From Vibrio sp. JC009 (GTDB lineage Bacteria > Pseudomonadota > Gammaproteobacteria > Enterobacterales > Vibrionaceae): 64,000 nucleotides of DNA. The notes under the pieces are model-generated. The model was not told the origin of the DNA. It worked only from the letters and a program-made list of their open reading frames with translations, and did no database searches. Positions 51,416-56,119 of the stretch are shown here, in pieces; position 1 is the stretch's first letter, and each line of letters begins with the position of its first letter. A program made the position numbers and the translations under genes. Where the stretch lies: contig NZ_CP092106.1 in NCBI RefSeq assembly GCF_029016485.1, forward strand, positions 2,666,001 through 2,730,000. The letters are read 5' to 3'.

Positions 51416-53581
51416 ATGCAAGGCAGAACTCAGCAGGGTGGCTTACAGATAGATAACACCCTTTACTCACTAGTTAATGATCAAATCATTCCGGGAACCG
51501 GCATCAGTGCCGAAGACTTCTGGCGATCCTTTGAAAAGATTCTGAATGATCTCACCCCGAAAAATCAGGCGCTGCTGCAAAAGCGCGAGGATCTGCAGCA
51601 GCAGATTGACAGCTGGCACAGGGAGCGCTCAGGAAAAGCCTTTGACCGGGCTGAATACAAAGCCTTCCTTCAGGAAATCGGCTATCTGGTGCCTGAAGAG
51701 GATGACTTCCGGATCACCACTGAAAATGTTGAGCCAGAAATAGCAACTCAGGCCGGCCCCCAGCTTGTGGTTCCTATTATGAATGCCCGTTTTGCCTTAA
51801 ACGCAGCCAATGCCCGCTGGGGAAGCCTGTACGATGCGCTTTACGGTACTGACGCCATCAGTGAAGCCGACGGAGCCGAAAGAGGCAGCAGTTACAATCC
51901 GGTGCGTGGCGGTAAAGTTATCGCCTTCGCCCGTGAGTTTCTTGACAGCGTGGCACCTTTAAACGGCGCTTCGCACAAGGAGACTCAAAGCTACTCCATA
52001 GGCAGTACGCTTAACGCCGTTTTGTCCAATGGTGAGCAGGTAACGCTGCTTGATAACACTCAACTTGCGGGCTACCGGGGACGCAAAGAGCAGCCAACAG
52101 CCATTTTGTTAAAGCACAACAATCTGCACCTGGAAATACAGATAGATCCCGGAGTGCCGATTGGTCGGCAGGACGCAGCCGGTATCAAGGATATTGTGAT
52201 TGAAGCCGCGCTGACCACCATTATGGATTGCGAGGACTCAGTTGCGGCGGTTGATGGTGAGGATAAGGCGCTTGCCTATCAGAACTGGCTTGGGCTGATG
52301 AAAGGCAGCCTGCAGGACACCTTCGAAAAAGGCGGCAAACTTGTCACCCGTAAGATGAGCCCGGATCGCAGCTACACCAGTATCAATGGCGGTGAAATCT
52401 CACTTAAAGGCCGCAGTATGCTGTTTATCCGTAATGTAGGCCACCTGATGACCACCCCGGCAATTCTTGACGCTGGCGGGAATGAGATCCCTGAAGGTAT
52501 TATGGATGGCATGATCACTTCACTGATTGCAGTCCATGATCTCAAGGGCGACAGCGAATTTCGTAACTCCAGCGCGGCCAGCATTAATATTGTAAAACCG
52601 AAAATGCACGGCCCGGAAGAAGTCGCCTTTACCACAGAGCTGTTTGGCAGAATTGAGCAGGTGCTGGATCTTGAGCCCAATACTATCAAAGTCGGCATTA
52701 TGGATGAGGAGCGCAGAACTTCAGTTAATCTCAGGGAGTGTATCCGGGCGGCGAAGGAGCGCGTGGTCTTTATCAATACCGGATTTCTTGACCGTACCGG
52801 CGATGAAATTCACACCAGTATGGAAGCCGGGCCTTTTGCCCCTAAAGGGCAGCTAAAAACCATGACCTGGATTGGCGCTTACGAAGATCAGAATGTGGAT
52901 TTAGGGCTGGCCTGTGGCCTGGCGGGCAAAGCACAGATAGGCAAAGGTATGTGGCCGGAACCGGATAATATGGCGAAGATGATGGAGGCGAAAATCGCTC
53001 ACCCGCTGGCCGGAGCCAATACCGCCTGGGTACCTTCACCAACAGCGGCCACTCTGCACGCGCTGCATTACCATCAGGTCAATGTGAAAAACAGACAGGA
53101 AGAGCTACGCAGCCGGACCTGTGCGTCGGTGGATGATATTCTGACTATTCCGCTGCTGGGTGATCAAAAGCTGACTGACGAGGATATTCAGAAGGAGCTG
53201 GATAACAACTGTCAGGGCATTCTGGGCTATGTGGTCCGCTGGGTGGATCAGGGTGTCGGTTGTTCAAAAGTGCCGGATATTAATAACACAGGGCTGATGG
53301 AAGACAGAGCGACACTGCGAATATCCAGCCAGCATATTGCCAACTGGCTGCATCATGGCATCTGCTCTAAAGCGCAGGTAATGGAAACTATGAAGCGTAT
53401 GGCGGCGATTGTTGATAAGCAGAATAAAGGTGACCCCAATTACACCGCCATGGCAGCGGACTTTGAAGCCAGTATCGCCTTCAGTGCAGCCTGTGAGCTG
53501 GTGTTTGAAGGCCGTGCGCAGCCAAGTGGCTACACTGAGCCTGTGTTGCATGCTATGCGTTTGAAGTTAAAGAAAAATTAA
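51416..53581 (+). CDS. glcB: Malate synthase G
   Basis: Condenses glyoxylate and acetyl-CoA to malate, the second bypass reaction. The 721 residues and domain order fit isoform G: TIM barrel with catalytic Asp/Arg motifs ([35 protein letters not shown]) and the C-terminal plug with [14 protein letters not shown]. The AGGGAGATCCT before the ATG is a good ribosome-binding site. The pairing with aceA here uses isoform G rather than the shorter isoform A (AceB) of enterics. The IS1111-type element begins 38 bases after its stop. Confidence 0.96.
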
Positions 53582-53592
53582 TGTAAAACCCT

Positions 53593-53618
53593 CGTTCCCA
53601 CGCTCCAGCGTGGGAATG
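53593..53618. repeat. GTTCCCACGCTCC hairpin repeat, IS-occupied copy
   Basis: TTCCCACGCTCCAGCGTGGGAATG is a REP-like hairpin of a widespread bacterial family. The IS110-family element begins directly after its GTGGGAATG. The missing continuation, GCATACCGG, is on the other side of the IS (54978-54986). Confidence 0.8.
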
Positions 53619-53631
53619 TATATGGACTCCC

Positions 53632-53879
53632 CCTGTAACACAAGTGGTTTAAGATAATAAGAGTTTATGCAAGTGCACGTATATTCGGTTTCATCATGGG
53701 GCGCTACCCCGAACCTTTATGGCTAAATCCACTAACAAGGCTTCTAATCGCAGTCCAGGCATTTATTGCCTCATTCCCACACAGAGTTTGCCTTGTGTGC
53801 TGTGCTAACACTTTATCTTAATTACTTGCTATTACGCTGGTTTGTCGTTTGCTCCAAATTCAGCTTTACCTTATTTCAG
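53632..53879 (-). ncRNA. Candidate seekRNA/bridge RNA region of the IS1111-type element
   Basis: Non-coding region downstream of the transposase on the same strand. Read on the minus strand it contains GTGGGAATG (complement at 53772-53780), identical to the target flank that abuts the IS. A small AGGCA/TGCCT hairpin follows, then TGGACT (complement at 53752-53757), which matches the IS end. This layout fits the guide RNA that IS110-family transposases use to choose targets. RNA boundaries and the right-hand guide are not resolved. Confidence 0.6.
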
Positions 53880-54902
53880 TTAAGCTAACTTAAGCTGGTA
53901 AGGCTGTTTTGATTTCAATATGGCACACGCCATCCTGACTATCTTATTCGCTAGAGCAATAACGACTTTATTCACATGGTTTCTCTCTAACAGAGAGCGT
54001 ATCCACTGACTAAGTGGATCAGTTTTATCTTTGACATGACTAACTACAGCTCGGGCACCATGAACGACAAGAGCTCTGAGATAACGATCTCCTCGCTTAG
54101 TAATGCCAAGGTTGATATTTCTACCTCCACTTCCTGTATGAGCAGGCACTAATCCAATGCTTGCGCTTGCATCCCTACCACACTTATAAGCCGATGCATT
54201 TCCTAACCTGGCATACAAAGCACTGCCTGAAATCCATGAAATACCCGGTAACGAGGCTAAAAGCTTACAATCTTCATTTTGTTTTGCCTGATTGGTAAGA
54301 GCTTGAGTGGCATCATCAATTTGGGTATCAAGCGCGAGCAACTGTTCTTTAAGATTATTTAGAATAAACCGAGCAGCATGGGTTAATTCATTTTCAGCAT
54401 TTTCCAACTCAAACGGTAGCTGTTTTCTGAGCGAATTGATTCCTATGGGAAATTTGATGCCATATTCCATCGCAAGCCCCCGGATACGGTTAGCAAGCTG
54501 TGTTCGTTGCTTAATATAACCTTCCCGCAGTCTTAGTAAGCAGGCAAGATCTTGCTGTTCAACAGTTTTAACCGGAACGAAATGAATATCTGTCCGCTGA
54601 CTGGCTTCATAAATAGCCAAAGCATCATTGGGATCATTTTTATTTCCCGAGCGATACTTAGCGGCGATCTGAGCAGGCACGAGTAAGACTTGATGTCCTG
54701 CCTGCTGGAACTTTCGACCCCAATAATGAGCCGTTGCACAAGCTTCCATACAAATAACAGCTTTGGGGTGCTTAGCCACCATTGAAATTAACTTTGATTG
54801 AGATACTTTTTGATTAGATGAAAGCTTTCCGTGCTTATTAATTATCGCAACTTGAATAACAGTCTTAGCAAGGTCGATAGAAATAGTGATATTCTTGTTC
54901 AT
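53880..54902 (-). CDS. IS110-family (IS1111 group) DEDD transposase
   Basis: A 340-residue RNA-guided recombinase. The N-terminal RuvC-like DEDD domain has SIDLAKTVIQVA, the Glu in ICMEACATAHYWGR and the Asp pair in GNKNDPNDALAIYEA. The C-terminal Tnp (IS116/IS110/IS902) domain has LASLPGISWISGSAL and GLVPAHTGSGG with its catalytic Ser region, then ITKRGDRYLRALVVHGARA. Length and all motifs look intact, so it is probably active. It is not related to DDE transposases. Confidence 0.95.
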   Translation of the reverse strand: MNKNITISIDLAKTVIQVAIINKHGKLSSNQKVSQSKLISMVAKHPKAVICMEACATAHYWGRKFQQAGHQVLLVPAQIAAKYRSGNKNDPNDALAIYEASQRTDIHFVPVKTVEQQDLACLLRLREGYIKQRTQLANRIRGLAMEYGIKFPIGINSLRKQLPFELENAENELTHAARFILNNLKEQLLALDTQIDDATQALTNQAKQNEDCKLLASLPGISWISGSALYARLGNASAYKCGRDASASIGLVPAHTGSGGRNINLGITKRGDRYLRALVVHGARAVVSHVKDKTDPLSQWIRSLLERNHVNKVVIALANKIVRMACAILKSKQPYQLKLA

Positions 54903-54985
54903 GGCATGGGCTCCTTTTTAGTTGACACTCTTACCTTAGCCGATATTTTCGACGAAGGTGAGGGAGTCCATGCCATTGCATACCG

Positions 54986-55213
54986 GACTCAAAAACACCA
55001 AATATAACCCAAGATATACGTTCTGCACTTATTAGTAATTCATGTTCGATGCAGGTGTCTTCTAATTGTTTGCTCGTTCATGATCAATGTCCATTGTGTA
55101 TGCAGCAAATGGGGCGAGGAAATGTGTACTGTTACGCCCCCTTAAACTCAGGTATGCATTCCCACGCGGGAGCATGGGAACGAGTTCCTCTTTATAATCA
55201 GCAGGTTATTAAA
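54986..55213. other. Gap between the IS and the oxyR-type gene
   Basis: No gene recognised. At its right side is a second hairpin repeat (55158-55181). Plus-strand open frames that continue into 55.9 kb are antisense to the LysR gene and have no family resemblance. Confidence 0.4.
55151..55181. repeat. GTTCCCATGCTCC hairpin repeat, unoccupied copy
   Basis: Minus-strand GTTCCCATGCTCCCGCGTGGGAATGCATACC is the same repeat family as 53593-53618, in inverted orientation. It preserves the uninterrupted sequence GTGGGAATGCATACC (55151-55165), the presumed empty target of the IS1111-type element. Confidence 0.8.
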
Positions 55214-56119
55214 CTACAACAACTCAGAAACCACTTCCGCCAGCTGCTCAAACGTCTCATAACGCGAAGAACTTGGTCTCCAGACCAGCCCGATATCCCG
55301 GTATGCCTGCTGGCCCGGCGGATCCACAATCACCAGATTCTGGTTCTCCAGGATGCCGTGCTCAATCGCCATTTGCGGAATAAAGGTGGTGCCCAGACCA
55401 TTTGCCACCATCTGCACCAGAGTATGAAGACTGGTTGCGGTGAACGGGTTTATCTTTTCTTTTTCCGTCAGCTTACAGGCAGAAACCGCATGCTCGGTAA
55501 GACAGTGCTCGTTCTCCAGCAGGAAGACATACTCGTCCGGCAGATCATCATAGCGGATAGGCACGCGGATGGTGTTTGCCTGATCCCGGCTTATCACCAT
55601 TTTAAAGGCATCCTGTCCAACAACCTGACTATGCATAGGGCCGATATCAATGGGCAGTGCCAGGATCAGCACATCCATCTCACCATTTTTCAGAGCTTCA
55701 AGCAGGTTTGCGGTAGTGTCTTCCCGCAGAAGAAGATCCAGCTCAGGGAAACGCTGGTTCACTTCCTGTACCAAATCACAAAGCAGGAAAGGCGCAATGG
55801 TAGGAATGCAGCCAACTTTAAGCTGCCCCTGCATGGTTCCGCCCTGACAAAGTTTGCCAAGCTCAATCAGATCCTGCCCCTTTGCCAGTAATTCCCGTCC
55901 CTGAGAAACCACTTTTTCTCCGGCCATGGTGAACACCAGAGGGCTTTTTTTATCCTTTTTCTCATATAAGGGACAGCCGATCATTTCTTCCAGATTCTGT
56001 ATACCTTTACTCAAAGTCGACTGGCTGACAAAGCACTTCTGTGCTGCTTCGCTAAAGTGCCGGGTCTCGTACAGAGTAATGAGATAGTGCAATTGCTTTA
56101 AACTTGGCCACTTATTCAT
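55214..56119 (-). CDS. oxyR: OxyR-type LysR-family regulator
   Basis: A 301-residue LysR protein: N-terminal winged helix (LKQLHYLITLYETRHFSEAAQKCFVSQSTL style) and effector domain. The redox pair of OxyR is present in ENEHCLTEHAVSACKL (two Cys eight residues apart, as Cys199 and Cys208 in E. coli). Peroxide would form a disulfide and switch on targets. It is divergent from a 2-Cys peroxiredoxin gene, the likely primary target. Vibrios may carry more than one OxyR-like protein, so the symbol is by motif, not by orthology test. Confidence 0.85.
   Translation of the reverse strand: MNKWPSLKQLHYLITLYETRHFSEAAQKCFVSQSTLSKGIQNLEEMIGCPLYEKKDKKSPLVFTMAGEKVVSQGRELLAKGQDLIELGKLCQGGTMQGQLKVGCIPTIAPFLLCDLVQEVNQRFPELDLLLREDTTANLLEALKNGEMDVLILALPIDIGPMHSQVVGQDAFKMVISRDQANTIRVPIRYDDLPDEYVFLLENEHCLTEHAVSACKLTEKEKINPFTATSLHTLVQMVANGLGTTFIPQMAIEHGILENQNLVIVDPPGQQAYRDIGLVWRPSSSRYETFEQLAEVVSELL

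Follow-up and report, generated by a model that had tools for sequence, protein, structure and literature searches.

How does an insertion sequence find one position within a short hairpin repeat, and does it carry the address in its own non-coding end? This question is raised by a locus in the window (the whole stretch of DNA that was analysed, 64 kb), where an insertion sequence, termed IS-A here, occupies one arm of a REP-like hairpin pair, while the other arm (55151-55184, plus strand, GGTATGCATTCCCACGCGGGAGCATGGGAACGAG, recognised by its sequence and its genome-wide matches) is empty. It is very probable that the stretch downstream of the transposase gene of IS-A encodes a guide RNA belonging to the seekRNAs/bridge RNAs, and that this RNA directs insertion into the hairpin. 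The mechanism and the target class are known, because both have been described (Tobes and Pareja, 2006, PMC1525189; Durrant et al., 2024, PMC11208160; Siddiquee et al., 2024, PMC11187229). Publications already exist on RNA guidance, on insertion into REPs and on the seekRNAs or bridge RNAs of IS1111 elements, and IS-A is a very legible further example.

The element and its ends

IS-A is an autonomous insertion sequence of the IS1111 group of the IS110 family. With the core CA counted once, the complete element measures 1360 bp (53619-54978, minus strand), and its ends are common to 16 copies in its own genome. The stop codon of a 721-aa ORF, which presumably encodes a malate synthase G-like protein, lies 37 bp upstream of IS-A. 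The transposase/recombinase ORF (340 aa, 53880-54902, minus strand) encodes a protein that scored 65.8 bits with PF01548 (DEDD, cut-off 29), 57.5 bits with PF02371 (cut-off 21.3) and 293 bits with the NCBIfam model NF033542 "IS110 family RNA-guided transposase" (cut-off 140). Candidate DEDD residues, assigned by eye, are D10, E53, D90 and D93. The C-terminal part contains GLVPAHTGSG at residue 250, which represents the motif GL-P----S(T)G known from IS1111 transposases (Siddiquee et al., 2024, PMC11187229). A search of genome contigs with the single transposase sequence, which covers close relatives only, retrieved one relative, at 43%.

The limits were set by the IS1111 convention with a left extension of 7 nt and a right extension of 3 nt. 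The left sub-terminal inverted repeat ATGGACTCCC (54962-54971, minus strand) is followed on its outside by the extension CAATGGC (54972-54978), and the right repeat GGGAGTCCAT (53622-53631, minus strand) by ATA (53619-53621). With 10 bp these repeats are inside the range of 7-17 bp given for IS1111 elements (Durrant et al., 2024, PMC11208160). Both sides of the junction have a 2-bp core in common (CA when read in the direction of the transposase gene), and therefore the exact cut is unreadable from a single copy. Between the transposase stop codon and the right end lies a non-coding stretch of 261 nt.

The target repeat

Most of the REP-like hairpin that IS-A occupies, CTCGTTCCCACGCTCCAGCGTGGGAATG, lies at 53591-53618 (plus strand), and the remainder is GCATACC at 54978-54984. 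The earlier note had placed the element exactly between GTGGGAATG (53610-53618) and GCATACC; both strings are present at these positions, and the shared core refines the junction. The empty target that it had read as GTGGGAATGCATACC (55151-55165, minus strand) is likewise confirmed, and its reconstruction is backed by 117 genome-wide matches to GTATGCATTCCCACG with up to 2 mismatches, versus 8 when the pattern was reversed as a control. As many as 14 of the matches may be right junctions of IS-A itself (ATATACATTCCCACG), and thus about 100 sites are free of IS-A, a few of which may be chance matches. The listed repeats often form outward-facing pairs about 100 bp apart.

The genome (5.21 Mb, 3 contigs) contains 16 full-length copies of IS-A, 14 of which are identical over the 1359 bp compared, while two have one change each. 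The proposal to collect further copies and compare their targets led to a uniform result: all 16 lie at one position and in one orientation, TATGC|IS|C(A/G)TTCCCAC, and the natural target reads GGTATGCATTCCCACG. The left seven bases are GATATGC at eight sites, GGTATGC at seven and CGTATGC at one, and the right flank begins with CATTCCCAC in 14/16 cases and with CGTTCCCAC in 2/16. Two copies (L016, C1:2258361-2259719, and L017, C1:1786708-1788066) have the right core CG, while their left core is still CA. These two copies, with CG on the right only, suggest that the left core may be derived from the element and the right core from the target.

Despite the abundance of the repeat in this genome, PF01797 detected no Y1_Tnp/RAYT gene there at E<=0.001, in a search whose control was positive in 5 of 14 genomes; without such a gene, a RAYT origin of the repeat within the genome is unsupported. 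With up to one mismatch, at least one match was found in 35 of 226 genomes of the genus, and many copies are confined to few genomes, e.g., 85 in the genome of IS-A and 73 in another (G116).

Segments of the guide RNA

The earlier note had recognised GTGGGAATG a third time, within the element and downstream of the transposase gene (53772-53780, minus strand), followed by a small hairpin. The segment is indeed there, with AGGCA-ATAAA-TGCCT and GGACTGCG coming next, and its proposed role as a target guide is borne out: it matches the element's own target at 9/9 positions, a score reached with 0/37 targets of other elements, and the corresponding segment changes with the target in sister elements. 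Over the single copies, the match of this top-strand guide (T) is 9/9 at 14 of the 16 sites and includes one wobble at the remaining two. At sites reading CACGCAGG the pairing can be extended to 53784 with one wobble.

All further segments are also given for the minus strand. An outer stem (P1) is formed by the 5' arm ACAAGGC (53790-53796) and the 3' arm GCCTTGT (53735-53741), and it encloses the apical hairpin P2, AGGCA-ATAAA-TGCCT (53757-53771). The bottom-strand target guide (B) with the core, GGACTG-CG, is located at 53749-53756, because sister elements have clear guides at the aligned position. The order within the RNA of IS-A is therefore a strong T guide 5' of a weak B guide that was placed by sister alignment. 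At all 16 sites, B has two internal mismatches to G(G/A)TATG-C(A/G) at the same positions, while TGC pairs and the last core base forms a pair or a wobble; the core of the RNA is CG, versus CA at 14/16 sites. Thus the right-hand guide for GCATACC, which had been missed before, can be located, but its match is weak and on its own not better than chance.

The earlier note had also read TGGACT, which follows the hairpin, as a match to the terminus of the element. This did not hold: TGGACT overlaps the B guide, and three sisters with the same terminus, TGGACTCC, differ at this position. It was rejected as a terminus signal, and to judge from these alignments the likeness is probably a coincidence.

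A second, multi-branched loop lies closer to the right end. GCCAT (53719-53723) is a candidate guide for the left end; it was identified by sister alignment and is complementary to ATGGC of the left extension. The stem P3 (GGTT, 53712-53715, with AACC, 53687-53690) contains the inner hairpin P4 (GGGG, 53707-53710, with CCCC, 53698-53701). It is followed by the right-end donor guide GAATATA with the core CG (53678-53686), for which the right end reads CCATATA|CA.

Sister elements with other targets

When 227 genomes from the genus were searched at E<=1e-95, sisters with 59-61% protein identity were found in two genomes besides that of IS-A, with two copies each (G082 and G186); one of the G186 copies has an internal stop codon. 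A collection of plasmids yielded an element of Pseudoalteromonas donghaensis (NZ_CP032091.1, 60.9%), the only one above 60% among the best 5000 matches. The non-coding regions of the sisters align well with that of IS-A from the outer stem through the donor guide, AGCCAT and GAATATACGTG are present in 4/4 aligned elements, and AAACTCTG in 3/4.

The frame of the RNA is kept in the sisters, and both guide segments differ and fit the respective targets. In G082, the T guide is GAGGAACG for the target CGTTCCTC, and the B guide is ACT-CG for AACT|CG. In G186, GAGGGACG serves for CGTTCCTC with one wobble, and the B guide ACGCT-CG faces ACGCT|CG at one copy and ACACT|CG at the other. The guides of the P. 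donghaensis element are GAGTTGCG for CGTAACTC, again with one wobble, and ACCT-CG for ACCT|CG. Copies at unrelated targets lacking matching guide changes, which had been named as evidence against a guide, were not encountered: 16/16 copies of IS-A share one target, and the guides of its relatives change with the target. Sequence and structure conservation as well as guide-target co-variation are demonstrated for IS-A and its relatives.

Guides and helices in 38 clusters

IS1111 copies from the genome of IS-A, 60 relatives and one named contig were grouped into 40 transposase clusters. The ends were found by the inverted repeats, and 38 clusters were used, with one representative each; CL14 and CL21 were omitted, having no usable inverted repeat, as were the copies L030, L096 and L101. 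When guide matches were searched without positional constraint (10,000 shuffles, CL39 trimmed), the sums were 271 for T, versus a shuffle maximum of 226, and 227 for B, versus 215. Because the unconstrained B matches were often outside the guide region, the test was rerun in fixed regions counted from the right end, comparing the match to the own target with matches to targets of other elements in 5000 shuffles. The own sum was 295.5 for the T guide (shuffles: mean 230.0, maximum 249) and 242.5 for the B guide (mean 207.5, maximum 224.5), and neither was reached by any shuffle. The right-end donor guide, scored on the last five bases of the element plus the core, gave 248.0 (mean 211.6, maximum 227.5; 0/5000). 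The left-end donor guide is only suggestive, because its sum of 220.0, versus a mean of 211.5, was reached by 45 of 5000 shuffles; the best-scoring place in IS-A was elsewhere than 53719-53723. The donor loop is thus half supported, with a right-end guide above all shuffles and a weak left-end guide. For all these sums the effective number is smaller than 38, because the clusters are related and several have attC-like targets.

To test the outer stem, the apical hairpin, the donor-loop stem and the inner hairpin, the pairing of each 5' segment with the 3' segment of its own element was compared with its pairing to those of other elements. Summed over 32 of the 38 clusters, all four exceed each of 5000 shuffles, while single clusters may miss one helix inside the segments cut; CL2, 3, 9, 13, 18 and 25 were left aside for non-coding regions of other length, near-duplicates or a fragmentary gene. 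The second point that had been named as counter-evidence, a region without conserved structured RNA among relatives, is therefore also not what was found. For IS-A, the helices are ACAAGGC/GCCTTGT, AGGCA/TGCCT, GGTT/AACC and GGGG/CCCC, and the numbers of other 3' segments pairing equally well are 0/31, 0/31, 6/31 and 3/31, respectively.

The minimum-energy fold of the single IS-A sequence contains the outer stem and the apical hairpin. It also pairs the 5' part of the T-guide region with the B-guide region, so that the two guides cannot be regarded as mere open loops. When 37 non-coding regions (CL25 omitted) were aligned with MAFFT, RNAalifold returned almost no consensus structure, because guide and stem columns slip in the alignment, and this approach was replaced by the helix tests on each sequence. 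A search of 53400-55400 against Rfam (E<=1) matched no family.

The weak B guide opens the way to a different reading, namely that only the T guide is functional in IS-A, while the left half of the target is conserved as part of the repeat and B has drifted or fits an older target. The same two mismatch positions recur in all 16 copies, the RNA core CG opposite CA at 14/16 sites looks as if it were kept from sisters with CG targets, and the group test lends no support to the B guide of IS-A alone: the best place is elsewhere and 36 of the 37 other targets score at least as high as the own target, the representative being the copy whose left flank, CGTATG, is an outlier. However, at 16/16 sites TGC fits and the last core base forms a pair or wobble, the segment stands exactly where the sisters match clearly, and B guides as a group exceed all shuffles. 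We therefore regard a T guide acting alone as rather unlikely, and favour an RNA with two target guides.

A second element at the same repeat

The genome contains another IS1111 element, IS-B, with 35% protein identity to IS-A. All nine listed copies are inserted at GGAG|IS-B|AGCATGGGAACGAG, a point of the same hairpin that lies 14 bp from that of IS-A and on the side of the loop, and single repeat copies hold both elements at C1:1.732 Mb and C1:2.312 Mb. The non-coding region of IS-B reads CCCATGCTC, a hairpin AGGTAG/CTACC, and GTGCGGGAG; CCCATGCTC is complementary to GAGCATGGG, and GTGCGGGAG resembles the left side CGCNGGAG. IS-A and IS-B thus use the same repeat with different guides.

This bears on the possibility that the transposase recognises the structure of the DNA hairpin instead of its sequence via an RNA. 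In its favour, IS-A inserts into a hairpin repeat, and the attC-like sites and apparent terminators in which other IS1111 elements of the genus reside also fold. Yet two elements with different guides enter one hairpin at different points, the sisters are found at other repeats with matching guide changes, and the T guides as a group fit their own targets above all shuffles, so that recognition of structure is very improbable. It is harder still to believe that the internal copy of GTGGGAATG arose by chance or remained from a REP: the string is common in the genome since the repeat is common, but just 9-11 nt are present and the rest of the repeat is absent, the segment stands at a guide position common to the relatives and changes with the target in the sisters, and the 64-kb window has three occurrences, precisely the three sites quoted above, versus a mean of 0.57 in shuffled windows (three were reached in 2 of 100).

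A model for target choice

With an RNA that contains two target guides, insertion of IS-A could proceed as follows. The RNA segment GUGGGAAUG would pair with the top strand of the right target half (CATTCCCAC), and GGACUG-CG would contact the left half, G(G/A)TATG-C(A/G), on its bottom strand; the two guides would flank the apical hairpin within the outer stem. The multi-branched loop would read the joined ends of IS-A itself; GAAUAUA-CG would serve the right end, and GCCAU probably the left end. IS-A would be excised as a circle, the end-to-end junction of which would form the promoter TTGTGT-N17-TACAAT. RNA and transposase would then insert the circle into the hairpin by recombination at CA/CG, always in the same orientation, and no target bases other than the core would be duplicated. 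We infer transcription of IS-A, RNA binding, circle formation and catalysis from published work on IS1111 and IS110 elements.

The predicted junction of IS-A contains the promoter-like sequence TTGTGT-N17-TACAAT, and three sisters share TACAAT at equal distance. Over the 38 clusters, the promoter score of the predicted circle junction was better than that of the native right junction in 31 cases, equal in six and worse in one; for IS-A the scores are 8 and 7, respectively. A circular intermediate and a junction promoter have been described for ISEc11 (Siddiquee et al., 2024, PMC11187229), and the putative promoter of IS-A would agree with them.

Comparison with known systems

Siddiquee et al. 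(2024, PMC11187229) described seekRNAs of the IS1111 elements ISEc11, ISKpn4, ISPst6 and ISPa11, in which the top-strand match precedes the bottom-strand match. IS-A resembles these elements in the RNA region downstream of the transposase gene, the order of the matches and the sub-terminal inverted repeats, whereas it differs in its target and its poor bottom-strand match. ISPa11 targets a REP of P. aeruginosa, and natural redirection occurs between relatives (PMC11187229); IS-A likewise targets a REP-like repeat, and its sisters have other targets. Bridge RNAs were predicted in 93.0% of IS1111 elements, at the right end, and in many of them a multiloop contains potential donor nucleotides (Durrant et al., 2024, PMC11208160). 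The target loop and the putative donor loop of IS-A, with the core, are similar to those of the bridge RNA of IS621/IS110, and its multiloop to the predicted IS1111 RNAs (PMC11208160). In IS110-type elements such as IS621, the structure of which is the subject of a separate paper (PMC11208158), the RNA lies in the left end (PMC11208160) and the guide order is reported to be reversed (PMC11187229), in contrast to the right end used by the IS1111 branch, including IS-A.

ISPpu9 and ISPpu10 of Pseudomonas putida are dissimilar and inserted into the same REP family in 7/7 and 7/7 cases (Tobes and Pareja, 2006, PMC1525189). IS-A and IS-B are also two dissimilar IS110-family elements at one repeat family of one genome. 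However, ISPpu9 and ISPpu10 enter the same point of the REP (PMC1525189), while the insertion points of IS-A and IS-B are 14 bp apart and one repeat copy can carry both. In titles and abstract openings of open-licence papers, neither IS-A nor a repeat entered by two IS1111 elements at separate points was found as a subject.

It is conceivable, though we would advance it only tentatively, that IS1111 guide RNAs in the genus have repeatedly been re-aimed at multi-copy, non-coding structured repeats by swapping two short segments. If so, the targets would include REP-like hairpins (two points, two elements), attC-like sites and the boundary between stem and T-tract of apparent intrinsic terminators, and the target loop would be a fast-evolving address label, selected for abundant and harmless sites. 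IS-A would then have been caught soon after such a change, with a fully adapted T guide, while the B guide and the core would represent an older address. The guide code of IS1111 elements has so far been tested in few examples. The 16 near-identical insertions, the relatives with swapped guides and the two dissimilar elements 14 bp apart represent a natural experiment, which can be used to learn which guide positions are needed, how far mismatches of the B guide are tolerated and how targets change. This also bears on IS1111 elements as programmable recombinases.

Further IS1111 elements of the genome and the genus

In one genome of the genus (G005; L066-L071, L104 and L105), an IS1111 element is inserted at CT|TTTTT in 8/8 examined of at least 12 copies. 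Judged by eye, a hairpin meets a T-tract at this point, and the sites are apparent intrinsic terminators. The non-coding region of the element carries ACACAAAAA and TTGGGCTTTTT.

Several IS1111 clusters (L072-L079, L086-L090, L103 and others) were found at AAC|GCC..TTAAG-like sites, which we take to be similar to integron attC sites. Guides at these sites are, for example, TAATGCGGC or TAATTGGG, and TCTAACGA. A group of IS1111 elements with attC as the target is already known (Post and Hall, as cited in PMC11208160).

A third IS1111 element of the genome, IS-C (about 31% identical), is present in seven tandem copies with an exact period of 2038 bp (L064, G000:C1:1100000-1116000). Each unit also comprises about 0.7 kb with a fragment of a transporter gene, presumably of the sugar-phosphate type (UhpC-like), and the array looks like an IS-associated tandem amplification.
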